From Candidatus Pelagibacter sp. IMCC9063 (lineage in GTDB: Bacteria > Pseudomonadota > Alphaproteobacteria > Pelagibacterales > Pelagibacteraceae), in assembly GCF_000195085.1 (NCBI RefSeq), contig NC_015380.1, forward strand, positions 1,164,001-1,228,000: 64,000 nt of DNA, given 5' to 3'. Position numbers and translations under genes: made by a program. Below are positions 2,780 to 46,511 of this stretch, in pieces (position 1 is the stretch's first letter; each line of letters starts with the position of its first letter). The notes beneath the pieces are model-generated. The model was not told the origin of the DNA. It did no database searches and saw only the letters and a list, made by a program, of their open reading frames with translations.

Positions 2780-4549
2780 ATGAAACAAGGAAAATATATC
2801 AAGACTTTCAAACTGTTGCTTCCTTATTTATGGCCAAAAAAAAGAAGGGACCTAAAGACAAGAGTTAGCTTTGCAGTTATTGCTTTAGTATTGGCAAAAA
2901 TAGCCAACGTTACGACTCCTTTAATATTGGGAGCGTCAGTTAACTCCCTCACAGAACTGAGTTCAGGTATTAATTTATTTATGCTTGTGCCTGTTGCTTT
3001 AATTGTCGGCTACGGCATTGCGAGAATAATTACTTTTGCATTTGTTGAAATTAGGGATGCTTTGTTTTCAAAGGTTTCTCAACACTCTATCAGACAAATA
3101 TCCTTAACCATGTTTCAGCACGTACATAATTTGTCATTGCAATTTCATTTAAATAGACAAACGGGAGCACTTGCAAAATTTATAGATAGGGGAACCAAAG
3201 GAATAGATTTTCTTTTAAGATATGTATTGTTTAATATTGTTCCTACTTTTTTTGAAATTTTTTTAGTTTCAGGAATTTTATTTTATCTTTATGGACCATG
3301 GTATGCAGTTATAACTCTTATAACTGTGGGTTTTTATTCTTACTTAACATTTCAGATCACGGAATGGAGAAATGAATTTAGAAGAAAAATGAATCAAGCT
3401 GACAACGATGTCAGTACAAAAATGATTGATAGCTTGTTAAATTTTGAAACAGTTAAATATTTTAATAATGAAAAATTTGAATTTAATAGGCTTGATAAAT
3501 CCTTAGAGGAATACGAATTAGCTGCTAATCAAACTCGTCATGCTCTATCGTTATTAAATGTAGCCCAAACATTAATCATAACGACTGGAATTACTATCAT
3601 GCTAGTAATGTCTGCTTACGGCATTAAAAGTGGGGACATCGATGTCGGAGGCTTTGTAGTAATTAATGCTTATATGCTTCAATTATACCAACCTTTAAGT
3701 TGGCTAGGTTCAGTCTATAGAGAAATTAGGCAAGCTTTAACTGACATGGAAAACATGTTTAGCTTATTAGAAATATCACCCACAACACAAAATGTTTTTG
3801 ATACTATGCCACAAAGTGATGTTGCTGAAATTAAATTTTCTAATGTTAGTTTTGATTATGACATTCGAAGAACTATCATCAAAAATATCTCATTTGTAGT
3901 TCCCAATGGAAAAAAAGTTGCGATTGTAGGACCTACCGGAGCTGGTAAATCAACAATTAGCAGGTTACTTTTTAAATTTTACGATCCTAAAGTAGGGGGG
4001 ATTTATATCAATAATATTAACATAAACAAAATCTCTCAAGAATCTTTACGAGAAATAATTGGCGTGGTTCCACAGGATACTGTCTTATTTAACGATACAA
4101 TCTATTACAACATTGCTTATGGAAGAACTGGAGCTACTAAAGAAGAGGTGGTTAGTGCTGCTAAAAATGCAGATATACATGATTTCATATCAATTTTACC
4201 GGATGGCTATGAAACAATTGTAGGAGAGAGAGGCTTAAAGCTATCTGGTGGAGAAAAACAAAGAGTAGCTATTGCAAGAACTATTCTAAAAAATCCTAAA
4301 ATATTCTTCTTTGACGAGGCAACCTCTGCCCTAGACACAAGCACTGAAAAAGAAATTCAAAAAAACTTAGAAAATGTCTCTAAAAACAAGACAACTCTAA
4401 TAATTGCGCATCGACTTTCTACTGCTGCAAATGCTGATAATATAATTGTTCTTGATGAGGGCGTTATTATTGAGCATGGAACACATGAAAGTCTATTAGC
4501 GCAAAAAGGGAAATACTTTGAAATGTGGGGAAAGCAAAAACCTAGCTAA
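2780..4549 (+). CDS. Atm1/HMT1-type ABC exporter (fused permease-ATPase)
   Basis: 589 residues: a six-helix transmembrane domain (about 25-320) followed by a nucleotide-binding domain. Walker A GPTGAGKST lies near residue 383, the signature LSGGEKQR near 488, Walker B IFFFDEATSAL near 510, and the H-loop IIAHRLST after it. The TM helices carry Atm1-like sequence (NVTTPLILG, YGIARI, ETVKYFNNE). Atm1 relatives export glutathione-linked sulfur, persulfide or metal complexes from the cytoplasm and link to Fe-S and heavy-metal homeostasis. It acts as a homodimer in the inner membrane. It is convergent with the zapE locus. Confidence 0.92.
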   Translation: MKQGKYIKTFKLLLPYLWPKKRRDLKTRVSFAVIALVLAKIANVTTPLILGASVNSLTELSSGINLFMLVPVALIVGYGIARIITFAFVEIRDALFSKVSQHSIRQISLTMFQHVHNLSLQFHLNRQTGALAKFIDRGTKGIDFLLRYVLFNIVPTFFEIFLVSGILFYLYGPWYAVITLITVGFYSYLTFQITEWRNEFRRKMNQADNDVSTKMIDSLLNFETVKYFNNEKFEFNRLDKSLEEYELAANQTRHALSLLNVAQTLIITTGITIMLVMSAYGIKSGDIDVGGFVVINAYMLQLYQPLSWLGSVYREIRQALTDMENMFSLLEISPTTQNVFDTMPQSDVAEIKFSNVSFDYDIRRTIIKNISFVVPNGKKVAIVGPTGAGKSTISRLLFKFYDPKVGGIYINNININKISQESLREIIGVVPQDTVLFNDTIYYNIAYGRTGATKEEVVSAAKNADIHDFISILPDGYETIVGERGLKLSGGEKQRVAIARTILKNPKIFFFDEATSALDTSTEKEIQKNLENVSKNKTTLIIAHRLSTAANADNIIVLDEGVIIEHGTHESLLAQKGKYFEMWGKQKPS

Positions 4550-4585
4550 AGGTTTTGCAAAAAGAGATTTTTTATTTTTAATAAG

Positions 4586-5655
4586 TTAAATTGCAAAATC
4601 AGGAGAAGTTAGTTCGTGCAATCTGCTAACTGTTCTCTTGAAGGGTGCAGCTAGTTTAAGAGATGAAGTCATATCGTCAATGGAAACTTCGCATGAGACT
4701 AGAATGGGGATTTTTTTTTCATATAAAATATCTATTAAAGTAATAAATCTTTGTTGCTCATTCATATTGTCATTATTGAAATTAGGAATGTTTTCTAGGA
4801 TAATAAATTTAGATTTTTCAGCAATAGCAATATAATCCTCTGCCCCCAAATTTTTAGAACACAGATCATTAAAATGAAACATTGCTGTTCCTTCGTAATA
4901 TTGCTCAATACAAAAAGATCTACCTTTGACCAAAATCTCTGGGGTGGTTAAGGCTTTTCCTTTGGTGATTTCTCTAGTTAGTTGATTGATGTTAAATTTA
5001 GTTTTTTCATTAATAGGATGAAAAAAACGTTCTAAAGTTTTAAAACCAGATGTTCTATAGTCACTTTTAATGACCAGCCCTCGCTCTATGCAAAATTTTT
5101 TAATAGTTTTGATAAATGGCACGAACTGCTCTCTTTGCAATCCATCTTGATAGAGATTGTCAATTTGAATGTTGGAAGTAAATATAGCTTTGATGTTGTG
5201 GTTAAAGATGGTTTGAAATAGTTTTCCTAAAATCATAGCATCTACAATGTTGGTTACTTGGAATTCATCAAAATAAATTAATTCAGTTTTTTTTTTAAAT
5301 TTTTGACAAACAATTCTAACAAATTCTCACTTTTGGATTTTTCTTTGTTTTGATGAATAAAATCATGAACATTGATCATAAACTCATTGAAGTGCAATCT
5401 TTGTTTCGGAATAGTTAGGGAATCGTAAAAAAAATTTAATACCATCGTCTTTCCCACCCCCACGTCACCGTACAAATAGAAGCCAAGTTTGTTTTCTCTG
5501 GGAGAGAATAGTCTAGAAAAAAAATTATTTTCTTTCTCGCTGTCTTTGTAAAATTTTATTAAAAGTTCAATAATTTCTATCTGTTCGTGATTTTTTTTTA
5601 ATTTTAAATCAGAGCAATGTATTAAAAAAGATTTTTTTAAGGATGTAATATTCAT
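4586..5655 (-). pseudogene. zapE: zapE (AFG1-like ATPase), interrupted by a one-base frameshift in a poly-A run
   Basis: Two minus-strand frames together make one AFG1/ZapE ATPase of about 356 residues. The upstream part (5278-5655) has Walker A GDVGVGKT and ends at a stop just after a run of ten A (5287-5296 on the plus strand as T). The downstream part (4586-5236 and further back) reads through Walker B, LIYFDEFQVTN, and continues to the arginine-finger region FKRTVSRLHEL. Changing A10 to A11 would join them exactly: NLKKK, then TELIYFDEF. ZapE is an AAA+-type ATPase tied to cell division and, in mitochondria (AFG1/LACE1), to protein quality control. The break may be a sequencing error, a real mutation or a site corrected by transcriptional slippage. 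All downstream motifs look intact, which argues against an old pseudogene. Confidence 0.85.
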
Positions 5656-38939: not shown

Positions 38940-39338
38940 ATGAATACCACAAATAAAATACTTTCGGAAATTTCTGCAGGCGAATTAATGGACAAAATAA
39001 CTATTTTAGAAATTAAAAAAGTTAAGATTCCCGACCCTGAAAAGCAGGTTATTATTAATAAAGAATTAAATAGTTTGCATAGCACCTACCAAACCTCTCT
39101 AACGCCTAGTCCAGAATTACAAGAACAAATCACTAAGCTCAAAACCATTAATCTTAAACTATGGGATATAGAAGAGAGAAAAAGAGAATGTGAGCGACAA
39201 AAAAATTTCGGTGACAGTTTTGTTCAATTGGCCAGAAGCGTTTATATTGAAAATGATAATCGAGCTAAGATCAAAGCAGAAATTAACCGCCTCACCAACT
39301 CTACTATTTCAGAAGTTAAAAGCTATAAAGCTTATTAA
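38940..39338 (+). CDS. DUF6165 family protein
   Basis: 132 residues, highly charged and predicted to be mostly helical. The N-terminal motif ISAGELMDKITILEIKKVKI and the later LWDIEERKRECE with ARSVYIENDNRA are the usual landmarks of DUF6165. Function is unknown; the family is found near glycosyltransferase genes, as here. Its TAA stop is interlocked with the nitrilase stop codon (TTAA overlap). Confidence 0.78.
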   Translation: MNTTNKILSEISAGELMDKITILEIKKVKIPDPEKQVIINKELNSLHSTYQTSLTPSPELQEQITKLKTINLKLWDIEERKRECERQKNFGDSFVQLARSVYIENDNRAKIKAEINRLTNSTISEVKSYKAY

Positions 39339-40135
39339 TCTAAATTTAAACTTGGGATGCGTGCTCTTAGTTTTGTAGGAAGCTCACTATCAATTTCAGC
39401 TATTACAAAACCAGTTCCTGTTTTTTTTTCTGCCAAAATAGCTCCATCTGGAGAAATGATAAGAGAATGTCCGTACGTTTCTCTTTGGTTTGGATGAGTT
39501 CCCACTTGTGCTGGAGCAAATACATAGGAAAAGTTTTCAATGGATCTTGCTTTTAACAAGCTATGCCAATGCTTCTCTCCTGTCGTTTTGGTAAAGGCTG
39601 CTGGAACACTTAAATAATCGCAACCAAGTTTGGCCAATTTTCTATACATTTTTGGAAAGCGAACGTCATAACAAATACTTAAACCTAACTTGCCCCAAGG
39701 AAGTTCTGCATGGACCAAATCTTTTCCGGCTAGAAACTTTTTAGACTCTTCGTATTTTTCTACTTTAGATAAGACTACATCAAACATATGTATTTTATCA
39801 TAAAACGTAACAATTTCTCCTTTTGAATTAATTAGTAATGATCGATTAGCTAACTTGGTCGAAGAAATTTTAATAGGCATTCCTCCAATCAAGAACCACT
39901 TTTTCTTTTCTTTGCAAAAAACTTGGATCGTTTTTATGAAAGAATTATTTTCATATCCTTCTGACTTGGATAAAAGTTCTTTTGAATTGGAGGAAAAAAT
40001 AGATGAATTTTCAGGAGTGACAATAAAGTCTGCTTTCGCTTGAATTGCTTGATTGGAAAAATTTAAGATACTTTGGGTATTTTGATCAACATCACTGCCA
40101 CAGGTTAACTGCAAGCAAGCAACATTAAATTTCAT
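39335..40135 (-). CDS. Nit1-type carbon-nitrogen hydrolase
   Basis: 266 residues, nitrilase superfamily. The catalytic triad is complete: Glu42 (VTPENSS), Lys114 (YDKIHMFDV) and Cys155 (LSICYDVRFP). The DKIHMFDV and SICYDVRFPKMYR motifs match the Nit1/YafV-like branch; Nit1 enzymes hydrolyse deaminated glutathione. It lies 6 bp downstream of the speD-speE fusion gene and is probably co-transcribed with it. Confidence 0.9.
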   Translation of the reverse strand: MKFNVACLQLTCGSDVDQNTQSILNFSNQAIQAKADFIVTPENSSIFSSNSKELLSKSEGYENNSFIKTIQVFCKEKKKWFLIGGMPIKISSTKLANRSLLINSKGEIVTFYDKIHMFDVVLSKVEKYEESKKFLAGKDLVHAELPWGKLGLSICYDVRFPKMYRKLAKLGCDYLSVPAAFTKTTGEKHWHSLLKARSIENFSYVFAPAQVGTHPNQRETYGHSLIISPDGAILAEKKTGTGFVIAEIDSELPTKLRARIPSLNLD

Positions 40136-40141
40136 ATAAGA

Positions 40142-41182
40142 TTATCTGTTAATAGAACTTACAAAATTCCAATTACAATCAAAACTTGGAATATACACTT
40201 CTGAAATTTTTGAGTTTCCAAAGTTTTTTTCTAAAGTGCTAATCCACTCATCTACTTGTTTTGGTTTTTTATTTTTAGAACCCACTTGCACTGTAATTAC
40301 ACCATCTTTTTTAACAATTCTTTTGACGTTATCTATATTTTTTTCCGCTAGGTTAATGCAGTAAGGATCGTCATTTAGATCTATGAACAAATGGTCATAT
40401 TTTTGATCTTCACAATTAATAATATTTTTAAAGGCATCTCCCCAGATACAATTAACGTTGTTACTTTTGTTTATATTCTTAAAGACTTCTGGAAGATACT
40501 TTTGGCAAGCCTCTACCACTTCTCGGTCTAATTCAAACCAATCAACAAAGTTAAAACCATTTTTAATACATTCTCTCGCCACTCCTCCATCACCACCACC
40601 TATAATAGCTGCAGAACCATTGTTTGCAGATAAGGCTAGTGAAGAATTTACAAAGGTAGAAGAATATAAAATCTCATCACTTTCAGCCACTTGGATTTCA
40701 TTGTCGATAAATAGTGCGTTCCCAAATTCTTTTAGCTTTAAAATTTCAATAAATTGACCCTGTTCTGATTTGAAGCTTTTAATAAACTCTTCCACCATGT
40801 AACTTTTTTGATGACCTTCTGAACTATAAATATCATGATAGGGATGAATAGTGTCTCGCGGAAATTCCTTTTTAACTACACTTGTGTGCTCAATTTCTTG
40901 CTTTAGAATATCATGAGCAACCATGGGACTAACTTTACCGCAGGTAAAAAAATCAAAACTAACAATCCCATTTTCAGGAAAGGTATGAAAGCTCATATGA
41001 CTCTCTTTTAATAGGGCAATCATAGTAAGACCTTGGGGGCTAAATTCGTATTTAGAAATATTTACAATGCCAACTTTCGCAGCTTTGGCAATTTTATTAA
41101 TAACATTCTCGTAAAACTCAGGGCTATATTCCTTCTTAACTCCTAGAAAATCTAGAGTAACGTGATCTCCTACTTTAACCAT
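40142..41182 (-). CDS. Fused S-adenosylmethionine decarboxylase-spermidine synthase
   Basis: 346 residues in two domains. Residues 1-115 are a prokaryotic AdoMetDC: the self-cleavage site is Glu60-Ser61 in KESHMSFHTFPE, with His66 and Cys81 (FFTCG) matching T. maritima SpeD numbering minus two. Residues about 140-346 are a spermidine-synthase-like domain with IIGGGDGGVAREC (195-206), ELD at 217-219 and FIDLNDDP (267-273). The usual YHE motif after DE is replaced (DEILYSSTF). The fusion would both make and use decarboxylated AdoMet for aminopropyl transfer. The nucleosidase and apt genes that would recycle the methylthioadenosine product lie next door. Confidence 0.9.
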   Translation of the reverse strand: MVKVGDHVTLDFLGVKKEYSPEFYENVINKIAKAAKVGIVNISKYEFSPQGLTMIALLKESHMSFHTFPENGIVSFDFFTCGKVSPMVAHDILKQEIEHTSVVKKEFPRDTIHPYHDIYSSEGHQKSYMVEEFIKSFKSEQGQFIEILKLKEFGNALFIDNEIQVAESDEILYSSTFVNSSLALSANNGSAAIIGGGDGGVARECIKNGFNFVDWFELDREVVEACQKYLPEVFKNINKSNNVNCIWGDAFKNIINCEDQKYDHLFIDLNDDPYCINLAEKNIDNVKRIVKKDGVITVQVGSKNKKPKQVDEWISTLEKNFGNSKISEVYIPSFDCNWNFVSSINR

Positions 41183-41236
41183 ATCTTGCCCCTTTTAATT
41201 GAAAATTTTTTATATAGAAGTGAGAAAAAAAATCAA

Positions 41237-41773
41237 CTACTTAACCCAAGAAAAATTTTTAGCCTTTTCTAGAAAAAGTTGAGAACCTTTTTTGCAATTT
41301 TCTAACCAATCATTGCTGGCATTTTCATCTGCATTGTCTGATATAAATTTAAAACACTTAAAACGAACATTGTGAAGCTTGCAAATTTTAGCTAGAGCAT
41401 ACGCTTCCATGTCTACCACATCTACATTCATTTCAATTTTACCTTGGACAAAGCTATCTCCTGTTCCACATGAGCATCCAGCGTCATTGGTGATGATCTC
41501 ATGAATAGAATCAAAAGGAGTTTCTCCTAACTTTAAATTCATTAATCCTCTCACATCCATATCTCTTTGATAAAATTTAGTAACTTCAATCAAGCCTTTT
41601 ATTTCCTTGTTGAGAGAGCCGACACTGCCAAAATTAACAATTTCTTCAGGCTTATGTTTTAAAATTAGCTGTGTAATGGCATGGGTTGCATTAATTTTTC
41701 CCACTCCGGTAAAATGAAAAAAATCTAAATTTGGAACCTCTTCTTTTAGTGCCGCTACAAATAATCTTTTCAT
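41237..41773 (-). CDS. Methylthioadenosine/S-adenosylhomocysteine nucleosidase-like protein
   Basis: 178 residues, shorter than canonical Pfs/MTAN (about 230). Nucleoside-phosphorylase-like landmarks are FTGVGKINATHAI, VNFGSVGS, the substrate-site VDMEAYALAKIC and SDNAD near the C terminus, corresponding to the DMEGAA and SDxAD motifs. It would cleave MTA, the by-product of spermidine synthesis, to adenine and methylthioribose. It starts in the 32-bp gap shared with apt on the other strand, and lies directly upstream of the SpeDE fusion, supporting this role. Confidence 0.8.
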   Translation of the reverse strand: MKRLFVAALKEEVPNLDFFHFTGVGKINATHAITQLILKHKPEEIVNFGSVGSLNKEIKGLIEVTKFYQRDMDVRGLMNLKLGETPFDSIHEIITNDAGCSCGTGDSFVQGKIEMNVDVVDMEAYALAKICKLHNVRFKCFKFISDNADENASNDWLENCKKGSQLFLEKAKNFSWVK

Positions 41774-41805
41774 AATACTTGAATAATATAGTAATAATTT
41801 AAAAT

Positions 41806-42333
41806 ATGAATTTAAAAAAATATATCAGATCTATTCCTAACTATCCTAAAAAAGGAATTTTATTTAGAGACATAACTACCTTGCTCGAAGACCCCAAGGC
41901 ATTTAGCTATGTTATTAAAAAAATGCACGCCATTTCAAAAAAAATACCTCATACTAAAATTGCCGCTATTGAAGCAAGAGGGTTTGTGTTTGCCGCAACT
42001 CTTGCTTATCTAAACAAAAAACCTTTAGTTTTATTAAGAAAAAAAAACAAATTACCAGGAGCTACTATCTCTCAAAAATTCAAACTTGAATATGGAACAG
42101 GTATTATCGAAGTTCATAAAAATTCTCTCAACAAAAATGATAAAGTGATTATTGTAGATGACTTAATTGCAACTGGGGGTACCGCACTTGCTTCCGCAAA
42201 AATAGTAGAAAAATGCAAAGCTAAAGTATCTGCTTTTTTATTTTTAATTGATTTATTTGATTTGCCAGGAAATAACAAATTGCTTGCTCGGGGCTATAAG
42301 ACGTTTAAATTAATTGATTTTCCAGGTCACTAA
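41806..42333 (+). CDS. apt: Adenine phosphoribosyltransferase
   Basis: 175 residues. Conserved APRT blocks are IPNYPKKGILFRDITTLL at the N terminus, IEARGFVFAA, the PRPP-binding loop VIIVDDLIATGGTA and the C-terminal FDLPGN. It converts adenine and PRPP to AMP. It is divergent from the MTA nucleosidase gene, so adenine released there could be salvaged here. Its TAA stop overlaps the stop codon of the convergent EamA gene by 4 bp. Confidence 0.95.
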   Translation: MNLKKYIRSIPNYPKKGILFRDITTLLEDPKAFSYVIKKMHAISKKIPHTKIAAIEARGFVFAATLAYLNKKPLVLLRKKNKLPGATISQKFKLEYGTGIIEVHKNSLNKNDKVIIVDDLIATGGTALASAKIVEKCKAKVSAFLFLIDLFDLPGNNKLLARGYKTFKLIDFPGH

Positions 42334-44256: not shown

Positions 44257-44724
44257 ATGACTTTTTGTAAATTTCTTTTTTTAAGTATCTTGCTATTTAC
44301 TAGTAGCGCCTTTTCTCAAGAAAAAGTTTATGTAGTTGATGGGGATACTATTCATATTGGTTTTAACAAGTATCGCTTCTCAGGAATAGATACGCCTGAA
44401 ATGAAACAAATCTGCAGTAAAGATAATAAAACTATTATGTGTGGTGTGTTAGCCAAAAATGCCTTAATCAAAAAAATTAATAACCGTCATGTTGTTTGCA
44501 AAAAAGAAACGATTGATCGATATAAAAGAATTGTTGCTGAATGTTTTGTAAATAACGAAAGCTTATCTAAATATTTGGTTCGAAATGGATATGCATTTGC
44601 CTACCGTAAGTATTCTAAAAAATTTATCGAAGACGAGCGCTATGCACAAGAAAACAAGCTAGGCTTGTGGTCCATGACTTTTGAATATCCTTGGGAATAC
44701 CGAAGAAAATTAAGATCTAAATAA
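44257..44724 (+). CDS. secreted thermonuclease-like (SNase) protein
   Basis: 155 residues with a signal peptide (about 1-20, cut after FS). The staphylococcal nuclease fold shows YVVDGDTIHIGF, YRFSGIDTPEMKQ, RYKRIVAECFVN and ENKLGLWS, with the catalytic Arg/Glu region around the GIDTPE and RY positions. It would be a periplasmic or secreted nuclease, useful for DNA-derived phosphate and nucleotides. Its end overlaps the convergent proW by 8 bp. Confidence 0.88.
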   Translation: MTFCKFLFLSILLFTSSAFSQEKVYVVDGDTIHIGFNKYRFSGIDTPEMKQICSKDNKTIMCGVLAKNALIKKINNRHVVCKKETIDRYKRIVAECFVNNESLSKYLVRNGYAFAYRKYSKKFIEDERYAQENKLGLWSMTFEYPWEYRRKLRSK

Positions 44725-45553
44725 ATTTTTGAGAAATACGGTCAAAAATAATAGCAATCAAAACAATTCCTATTCCACCAACGAGAGCCTGACCAATATC
44801 CAATCTTCCTAAACCTACATAAACTGTAAGTCCTAAACCACCTGCTCCAATCAAAGCTGCAATCACTGCCATAGATAAAGATAACATAAGGGTTTGATTT
44901 ACCCCTGCCATAATAGTTTTTAGCGCTAACGGTAGTTCAATTTTGTAAAGTACTTGCCACTTATTACAGCCTAAGGCTCTTGCTGCATCTTTAAATCTTT
45001 TTTCTACCTGTCTTAATCCTAAATTAGTCAGACGGATCACAGGTGCAATCGAGAAAATAATAATAGCAATTACTCCTGGAGTAATTCCAATTCCAAATAA
45101 CATCACCACAGGAATTAAATAAACAAAACTAGGTATAGTCTGCATCACATCCAAGATCGGCCTTAATATTTTTTCAAATAAATTACTTCTAGATGCGGCA
45201 ATACCAATAGGAATTCCAATCACAGAACAAAATAAAACAGCTGTAATAATCATGGCCATGGTTGTCATGGTTTCTTCCCAGACATCAACTAGATCAATAA
45301 AAATTAAACTGCAAAAAGTAAAAATGGAAAATTTAATTCCATTGGTTCTAAAAGCAAAATAAGCAAAGAAAAAAATAACGATAGGTAAAGGAACTAAATT
45401 AAAAAAATAATCCAAACTATTTAAAACACTATCGATGGGAACAGATAACTTCTTAAAGAGTGGTCGTTGATCAAACAACCACTCTTTGAAGTATTTTTCT
45501 ACCCATTCCGATAATGGAATGTAAGCGTACGTCGATGGATTAAAAATGTTCAA
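44717..45553 (-). CDS. proW: Glycine betaine/proline ABC transporter permease
   Basis: 278 residues with about seven membrane segments. The permease EAA loop is ALGCNKWQVLYKIELPLA. Other ProW-like blocks are IPSFVYLIPVVMLFGIGITP and the C-terminal GAGGLGLTVYVGLGRLDIGQAL. It forms the channel for the ProX-bound compatible solute. It follows proX by 4 bp. The ATPase proV, normally the first gene, is not adjacent. Confidence 0.93.
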   Translation of the reverse strand: MNIFNPSTYAYIPLSEWVEKYFKEWLFDQRPLFKKLSVPIDSVLNSLDYFFNLVPLPIVIFFFAYFAFRTNGIKFSIFTFCSLIFIDLVDVWEETMTTMAMIITAVLFCSVIGIPIGIAASRSNLFEKILRPILDVMQTIPSFVYLIPVVMLFGIGITPGVIAIIIFSIAPVIRLTNLGLRQVEKRFKDAARALGCNKWQVLYKIELPLALKTIMAGVNQTLMLSLSMAVIAALIGAGGLGLTVYVGLGRLDIGQALVGGIGIVLIAIIFDRISQKFI

Positions 45554-45557
45554 TTAA

Positions 45558-46511
45558 CTATTTTGCAGCTGCAATCCAGCTATCAAATGTTTTTTGATTT
45601 ATTTTAACCCATGCTTTGGCATGATCTTTTACTTGTCTCTCACTTTTTTCACCTTTATTCATCTGCATATTTTGTGCTGCGATATCAGTTAAAGGAATAG
45701 ACGCTACTTTTAATAGCTTTTCCACTTTTGGATTTTTTTTCAAAAATGCCACGTTTGCAGCTGGACGAATATCATCCGCACCAAAACCTAAATTAATAGA
45801 AGGTTTTGTTGCATTAGCCACTTCTGTAACTTTTGTTTTTGAGTAAGGAACTTCAATCCAAACTACATCCGTACCAAGTTTAAATGCACCAACAGTCCAG
45901 TTAGGAGTCCAAGTATAAAATAGAACTGATTTTCCATTTTTATATCTCGCTAAAGCATCAGCCATCGAAGCAGAGTATTCTGCTTGAATAGGATTGATGA
46001 ATTCTCCCAATTTAAGTTCTGCAAAATGCTTCGTAATTTGCTTTTCACATCCCCATCCTGGAGGACACGCAACCATATCTGCTTTGCCATCATTGTTGGC
46101 ATCAAATTGTTTTGCATGTTTCTTAATATCTAGAACGCTTTTGATGTTAAGACGGTCAGCCGTTTTTTTGTCTACCAAATATCCTTGAAGACCACCCTTT
46201 TTCATAACATAGCCAACTTTTTTAACTTTTCCCTTAGTTTCAGCTAGATACGTATCGTGGGTTCCAAACCATCCATTGACCCACAAGTCTAAATCCCCTT
46301 GGGCAGCTGCCACATAAAAGATAGAGGGCTTGATAGCCTTTGGTTCTGTAACTTTATAACCTAGCTCTTCTAAGGCCATTTTATAAACTTCAGCCTGGAA
46401 ATATCCTGTATCCCAGTTAGCCTTAGCCATCTTAACTTCCTTATTGTCTTGGCCAGAACATGCTGCCAAAACAAACAAAGACAGATAAATTATTGATTTT
46501 AGTGTTTTCAC
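45558..46511 (-). CDS. proX: Glycine betaine/proline-betaine-binding lipoprotein
   Basis: 317 residues from a GTG start with GGAAGGA upstream. A lipoprotein signal ends LAAC (Cys18). The OpuAC/ProX domain has the characteristic WVNGWFGTHDTYL, CPPGWGCEKQI and YTWTPNWTVGAF aromatic motifs that form the betaine cage. It captures glycine betaine or related osmolytes (for example DMSP) in the periplasm. It is the first gene of the proXW pair. A -35-like TTGACA is located about 56 bp upstream. Confidence 0.94.
   Translation of the reverse strand: MKTLKSIIYLSLFVLAACSGQDNKEVKMAKANWDTGYFQAEVYKMALEELGYKVTEPKAIKPSIFYVAAAQGDLDLWVNGWFGTHDTYLAETKGKVKKVGYVMKKGGLQGYLVDKKTADRLNIKSVLDIKKHAKQFDANNDGKADMVACPPGWGCEKQITKHFAELKLGEFINPIQAEYSASMADALARYKNGKSVLFYTWTPNWTVGAFKLGTDVVWIEVPYSKTKVTEVANATKPSINLGFGADDIRPAANVAFLKKNPKVEKLLKVASIPLTDIAAQNMQMNKGEKSERQVKDHAKAWVKINQKTFDSWIAAAK

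Follow-up and report, generated by a model that had tools for sequence, protein, structure and literature searches.

The speD-speE locus of Candidatus Pelagibacter sp. IMCC9063 most probably makes polyamines and clears the by-product of their synthesis, and does so in the window's lineage through a one-gene nucleosidase form (the window being the whole stretch of 64,000 nucleotides that was analysed). The enzymes are known and the comparative pattern around them is modestly new. Less expected is that a few SAR11 genomes, the window's included, have one small gene where most relatives have a three-step recycling set: most of the genomes examined combine polyamine synthesis with a complete-looking set for MTA recycling, and some with a one-gene disposal. 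SAR11 bacteria, which rank with the ocean's most abundant groups, need reduced sulfur, and the forms taken by the slot that separates apt from the fusion gene predict, in a testable way, which strains recycle and which release methylthio sulfur.

Organization of the locus

The domains, motifs, gene order and distribution reported here are read directly from sequence. The features of the locus are the following:

39335..40135, minus strand: carbon-nitrogen hydrolase (nit), deaminated-glutathione-amidase-like (PF00795), 6 bp downstream of the fusion
40142..41182, minus strand: speD-speE fusion, 346 aa, class 1b AdoMet decarboxylase plus aminopropyltransferase (Pfam PF02675, PF01564, PF17284)
40163..40816, minus strand: aminopropyltransferase domain of the fusion, residues ~123-340, with the GGGDGG motif and D268-L-N-D271
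40856..41164, minus strand: AdoMet decarboxylase domain of the fusion, residues 7-109, with the Glu60-Ser61 cleavage site, His66 and Cys81; passes TIGR03330
41237..41773, minus strand: short MTA/SAH-nucleosidase-like protein, 178 aa, assigned by PNP_UDP_1, model with Foldseek, and alignment
41806..42333, plus strand: apt, adenine phosphoribosyltransferase, 175 aa, divergent from the nucleosidase (TIGR01090)

The open reading frames of the fusion, the nucleosidase and apt are all present where the initial annotation had placed them, and intact full-length frames in many relatives indicate that the three are not chance frames. The fusion and the nucleosidase lie 54 bp apart, and the divergent starts of the nucleosidase and apt are separated by 32 bp. 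The genome belongs to SAR11 (Pelagibacteraceae) and probably to subclade IIIa; the fusion shares 99% identity with its counterpart in the Pelagibacteraceae MAG CP.1 and 84% with the one in CP.31, and CP31 is listed among subclade IIIa genomes in a published study (PMC10030771).

The nit gene is context and not clearly part of the module. It scored 201.5 bits against NF043013, under the cut-off of 500, and a role as carbamoylputrescine amidase was rejected (AguB, 71.9 against a cut-off of 410.25); in several relatives it keeps its place beside DUF6165/GT9, with other genes parting it from the fusion. No Rfam RNA, known riboswitches included, was matched in the window at gathering thresholds. 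Elsewhere in the window (44717-46511), a permease and a substrate-binding protein resemble by eye a glycine betaine/proline transporter.

The fusion enzyme

One open reading frame encodes an AdoMet decarboxylase domain followed by an aminopropyltransferase domain, the architecture of AdoMetDC-APT fusions. Pfam places AdoMet_dc at residues 7-109 (E 3.4e-25) and Spermine_synth at residues 171-340 (E 2.4e-24), with a tetramerisation domain at residues 122-167 barely above its cut-off. The decarboxylase domain exceeds the equivalog cut-off of TIGR03330 (87.2 vs. 75.65 bits), and E60, S61, H66 and C81, claimed in the initial annotation, are indeed there and invariant in all 25 SAR11 fusions of an alignment made of the window sequence and 24 selected loci (from L001-L163). 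In the same alignment G195-G196-G197-D198 and G200 of the aminopropyltransferase motif are invariant and G199 nearly so, and D268-L-N-D271-D272 is invariant as well. The AlphaFold2 model of the fusion (mean pLDDT 87.0, pTM 0.66) retrieved with Foldseek human spermine synthase as top PDB match (3c6k, E 6.8e-23, TM 0.56, rmsd 8.9), followed by spermidine synthases covering the C-terminal part.

Since the protein falls under the spermidine synthase equivalog cut-off (TIGR00417, 104.5 vs. 249.55 bits), it is filed here as an aminopropyltransferase and not as a strict spermidine synthase. Homologues of the fusion from HTCC1062 and HTCC7211 were reported to make spermidine in an E. coli speD deletion strain, spermine/thermospermine in a speE deletion strain, and norspermidine from diaminopropane (PMC11107197). 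The proposal that this gene makes spermidine thus stands as far as polyamine synthesis goes, and is too narrow as to the product; annotating the fusion simply as a spermidine synthase should be avoided. The idea of a new enzyme was rejected, the SAR11 homologues of that report having already been expressed and tested. SAR11 SpeE has also been proposed to run in reverse, in a paper that refers to Green et al. 2011 on the gene fusion and its broad substrate range (PMC8437039); Green et al. 2011 is cited in PMC12803844 as well.

A fusion match (E <= 1e-30) occurs in 200 of 247 genomes of the family, a few of them partial, and in 89 of the 102 good genomes. None of the 200 positives belongs to genus g6, which is LD12-like; its genomes G010, G023 and G031 (locus L156 among the stretches examined) have no fusion match. 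Two genomes of family f2 (G050, locus L140; G039, locus L141) lack the fusion and have SpeD as a separate protein of about 126-130 aa.

The nucleosidase and apt

The assignment of the short neighbour as an MTA/SAH nucleosidase fits: it matches PNP_UDP_1 with 54.2 bits (Pfam cut-off 25.1, E 1.7e-14), and the structure predicted for it (mean pLDDT 82.2, with two segments below 50) has the nucleosidase fold, Foldseek returning MTA/SAH nucleosidases with that of Brucella melitensis as the best (4pr3, E 6.4e-12, TM 0.72 by query). It falls under every NCBIfam equivalog cut-off among the matches listed (best PRK05634, 92.5 vs. 129 bits; TIGR01704, 40.1 vs. 73.8), so that its substrate is deduced and the protein is described as working like MtnN and not filed as an equivalog. 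Residues E12, E123 and D146 are invariant in eight of eight aligned homologues; E123 and D146 align to MTAN residues, and E12 is matched by position only. PDB titles among the structure matches name Glu12 and Asp197 mutants; the catalytic residues of MtnN are Glu12, Glu174 and Asp197 in E. coli numbering. A need for the nucleosidase in handling SAH was rejected, SAH hydrolase being present in 35 of 37 genomes, the window's (G000) included. In one relative (L170, G239) the nucleosidase match contains one in-frame TAA, which may be decay or a sequencing error. The divergent gene was correctly taken for apt (TIGR01090, 194 bits vs. a cut-off of 185.85).

Gene order and distribution in relatives

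In 66 of 80 loci from named records, the fusion is linked to apt and to an enzyme that cleaves MTA. The order apt-mtnP-mtnA-aldolase-fusion accounts for 61 of the 80, a form with a dehydrogenase for four (one without apt), apt-nucleosidase-fusion for two and partial orders for 13. Ten of these 13 (ten of the 19 loci outside the usual order) end too near, with little upstream sequence; L075, L083 and L107 have a 6 kb flank, yet apt, or apt together with mtnP or mtnA, is missing within it. Among 40 stretches of family f1, 24 span the slot from apt through to the fusion: 13 slots carry mtnP-mtnA-class II aldolase (counting G002 with its separately found mtnP, and G033 with a broken mtnA), seven carry mtnP-mtnA with an oppositely oriented aldolase/short-chain dehydrogenase, three the nucleosidase and one mtnP alone. 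The break in the G033 locus (L133), otherwise complete for mtnP-mtnA-aldolase, consists of two stops in mtnA.

Three forms coexist in genus g1: the nucleosidase in G000 and G003, with its tail in G001, mtnP-mtnA-aldolase in G002, and mtnP alone in G005. The G005 locus (L150) looks like a half-way form: its slot lacks both mtnA and an aldolase, and the rest of the genome gave no mtnA either. In family f2, G041 carries apt-mtnP-mtnA-aldolase/dehydrogenase in one direction and no fusion. The mtnP and mtnA examples scanned pass their equivalog cut-offs. The small aldolase of SAR11 scores best as fuculose-phosphate aldolase (206.1 vs. 264) and lower as MtnB (69.5 vs. 137.05), in both cases below the cut-off, so that its role is deduced from context. 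Directly after the fusion, several SAR11 genomes have an ABC transporter (e.g., L128 of G029, 3342-5617) that possibly feeds putrescine synthesis; its binding protein resembles the lysine/arginine/ornithine type (220.6 bits vs. a cut-off of 256.35).

A model search found the nucleosidase in ten of the 247 genomes and nine of the 102 good ones, and MTAP in 188 of the 247, in 183 above the cut-off. No genome has both by these searches (hypergeometric 3e-7, a figure that ignores relatedness and is not a formal test), and neither enzyme was found in 49 of 247, many of them incomplete. A further genome, G001, was missed by the nucleosidase search as its contig begins inside the gene: the tail stands just before the fusion at the contig start, and an MTAP lies on another contig of 3.5 kb, which may mean that this genome has the two forms together or that a contig was binned wrongly. 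Matches to mtnA are absent from ten of the 11 nucleosidase genomes (the ten plus G001); the remaining one, G015, has both the nucleosidase and mtnA, and is 8% contaminated.

Seven of the ten nucleosidase genomes have the order apt-nucleosidase-fusion; in G031 the gene stands at a contig edge, and G015 shows a different arrangement. Family f2 has nucleosidases in G043 and G049 that do not adjoin apt. In G010, presumably the LD12 isolate LSUCC0530, apt and the nucleosidase stand side by side with no fusion, which indicates that this pair does not depend on polyamine synthesis. Conservation of the three-gene order, as expected from the initial annotation, is therefore found in part: linkage of apt and the fusion with an MTA-cleaving enzyme is common, and the nucleosidase version is rare among the 247 genomes. 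As the general form of the family the three-gene order was rejected, most relatives carrying MtnP-MtnA-aldolase in the slot, and the suggested module of streamlined marine bacteria turns out to be a reduced form of the family's usual one.

Proposed pathway

The fusion would process itself at Glu60-Ser61 into a pyruvoyl enzyme and then decarboxylate AdoMet; its C-terminal domain would transfer the aminopropyl group to putrescine, with release of MTA, and further transfer to give spermine/thermospermine is probable. The nucleosidase would split MTA (probably 5'-deoxyadenosine too) into adenine and methylthioribose, and Apt would convert adenine into AMP. An ODC/LDC-like protein encoded at G000:C1:285904-287088, whose closest PDB structures are lysine/ornithine decarboxylases, could be the source of putrescine for the fusion. 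The earlier scheme of spermidine synthesis, MTA cleavage and adenine salvage agrees with these gene assignments once polyamines are read for spermidine.

The window genome gave no match to MTAP, MtnA or MTR kinase (MtnK), so that methylthioribose would be an unused dead end, probably excreted; accordingly, the set that makes up the DHAP shunt, a class II aldolase together with MtnA and either MtnP or a nucleosidase with MtnK, was not found complete in it. In the usual SAR11 slot MtnP, MtnA and the class II aldolase, the last in a putative role, would yield adenine, DHAP and methylthioacetaldehyde from MTA. A study of R. palustris describes MtnP, MtnA and Ald2 as leading from MTA to methanethiol (PMC5893883), and the usual SAR11 form would lead there too, provided that its aldolase works as Ald2 does. 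Strains of subclade IIIa depend on reduced sulfur and do not use DMSP (PMC10030771), and a discarding of the methylthio group would therefore be unexpected.

History of the slot

We tentatively propose that the slot alternates between two contents, a three-gene route from MTA to DHAP/methanethiol and a lone nucleosidase, which recombination has swapped several times, and that the window's lineage discards the methylthio group. If true, the slot would act as a natural switch by which bacteria that depend on reduced sulfur save or discard this group. No description of the alternation was found in the openly licensed literature searched, and its novelty is provisional; the SAR11 polyamine paper PMC8437039 is indexed once each for mtnA and nucleosidase, words that its main text lacks, and may show these genes in a figure or supplement.

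On a tree of 114 fusions with nine nucleosidase rows, all rows without a visible nucleosidase being labelled MTAP-type, cut loci included, the slot changes state eight times at the simplest, and at least four changes are forced by well supported branches; smaller trees give three (fusion, 32 rows) and four (apt, 30 rows). Together with the nucleosidase lying exactly between apt and the fusion in seven of ten genomes, these counts speak for a swapped cassette, in which SAR11 lineages would repeatedly have exchanged the one-gene nucleosidase and MtnP-MtnA-aldolase by recombination across the conserved apt and fusion flanks, a sulfur-wasting against a sulfur-saving form of MTA disposal. We give this account about an even chance; being one of how the slot came about, it can hold together with the polyamine and by-product function. 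The small number of nucleosidase rows and the cut contigs among the others weigh against it, as does the shuffling of labels, which averages 8.8 changes and reaches eight or fewer in 109 of 500 shuffles, so that the nucleosidase label appears scattered and not clearly clustered. Two ancestral copies followed by many losses would also leave scattered states, and this second history, in which ancestral SAR11 had both enzymes and lineages dropped one or the other, is possible, if rather doubtful. In its favour, nucleosidase identity between the window genus (G000/G003) and a set of five g4 genomes plus SAG-MED48 is 60-68%, about the level of the fusion (61-64%) and, for the window genus against g4, of apt (61-65%), and G001 may carry both forms. 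It fits poorly with the lack, G001 apart, of any genome with both enzymes among the 247 searched, and with both forms sitting in the same slot.

Within g4 the nucleosidase also tracks the fusion poorly: for distant pairs inside the set of g4 and SAG-MED48 (those with G029 or G101), fusion identity rises to 83-87% and nucleosidase identity only to 66-71%, and over 28 pairs from eight genomes identities correlate at 0.99 between apt and fusion and at 0.77 between nucleosidase and fusion. Taken together, the identities of the three proteins favour a putative exchange between lineages, although quicker evolution of the nucleosidase could also depress its identities, and the protein is short and its tree weak, with three of eight branches starred. 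The neighbourhood could be an accident, with a nucleosidase that mainly clears 5'-deoxyadenosine, the by-product of radical-SAM enzymes; G010, which keeps apt and the nucleosidase without the fusion, is consistent with this, but it is made improbable by the 66 of 80 loci where the fusion occurs together with apt and an enzyme cleaving MTA. Repeated replacement of the slot's content in place appears likely, short of proven, with its direction presumptive.

Comparison with known systems

The fusions of Ca. Pelagibacter ubique HTCC1062 and Ca. Pelagibacter sp. HTCC7211 share with the window's the same fused architecture and a class 1b AdoMet decarboxylase. The window fusion is 63% identical to that of G029, which we take to be HTCC1062 and which has the same apt-nucleosidase-fusion order; with 37% divergence, the profile of spermidine, spermine and thermospermine may differ between the two. 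Human spermine synthase (3c6k) likewise joins an AdoMetDC-like N-terminal domain to an aminopropyltransferase domain, but in the animal enzyme the N-terminal domain has lost decarboxylase function (PMC12803844), whereas the window fusion keeps the Glu-Ser pair, the His and the Cys. With the Brucella MTAN (4pr3) and the MtnN family the window nucleosidase shares the fold and the aligned VDME and ISD stretches, and it differs in being shorter (178 aa vs. 233 in the 4pr3 chain) and in scoring below NCBIfam cut-offs. As for the DHAP-methanethiol shunt of Rhodopseudomonas palustris (MtnP-MtnA-Ald2), the slot in relatives of the window genome likewise holds MtnP and MtnA with a class II aldolase, the SAR11 aldolase being a putative counterpart that scores best as fuculose-phosphate aldolase, whereas the window genome, with no match to MTAP or MtnA, has the nucleosidase in their place.
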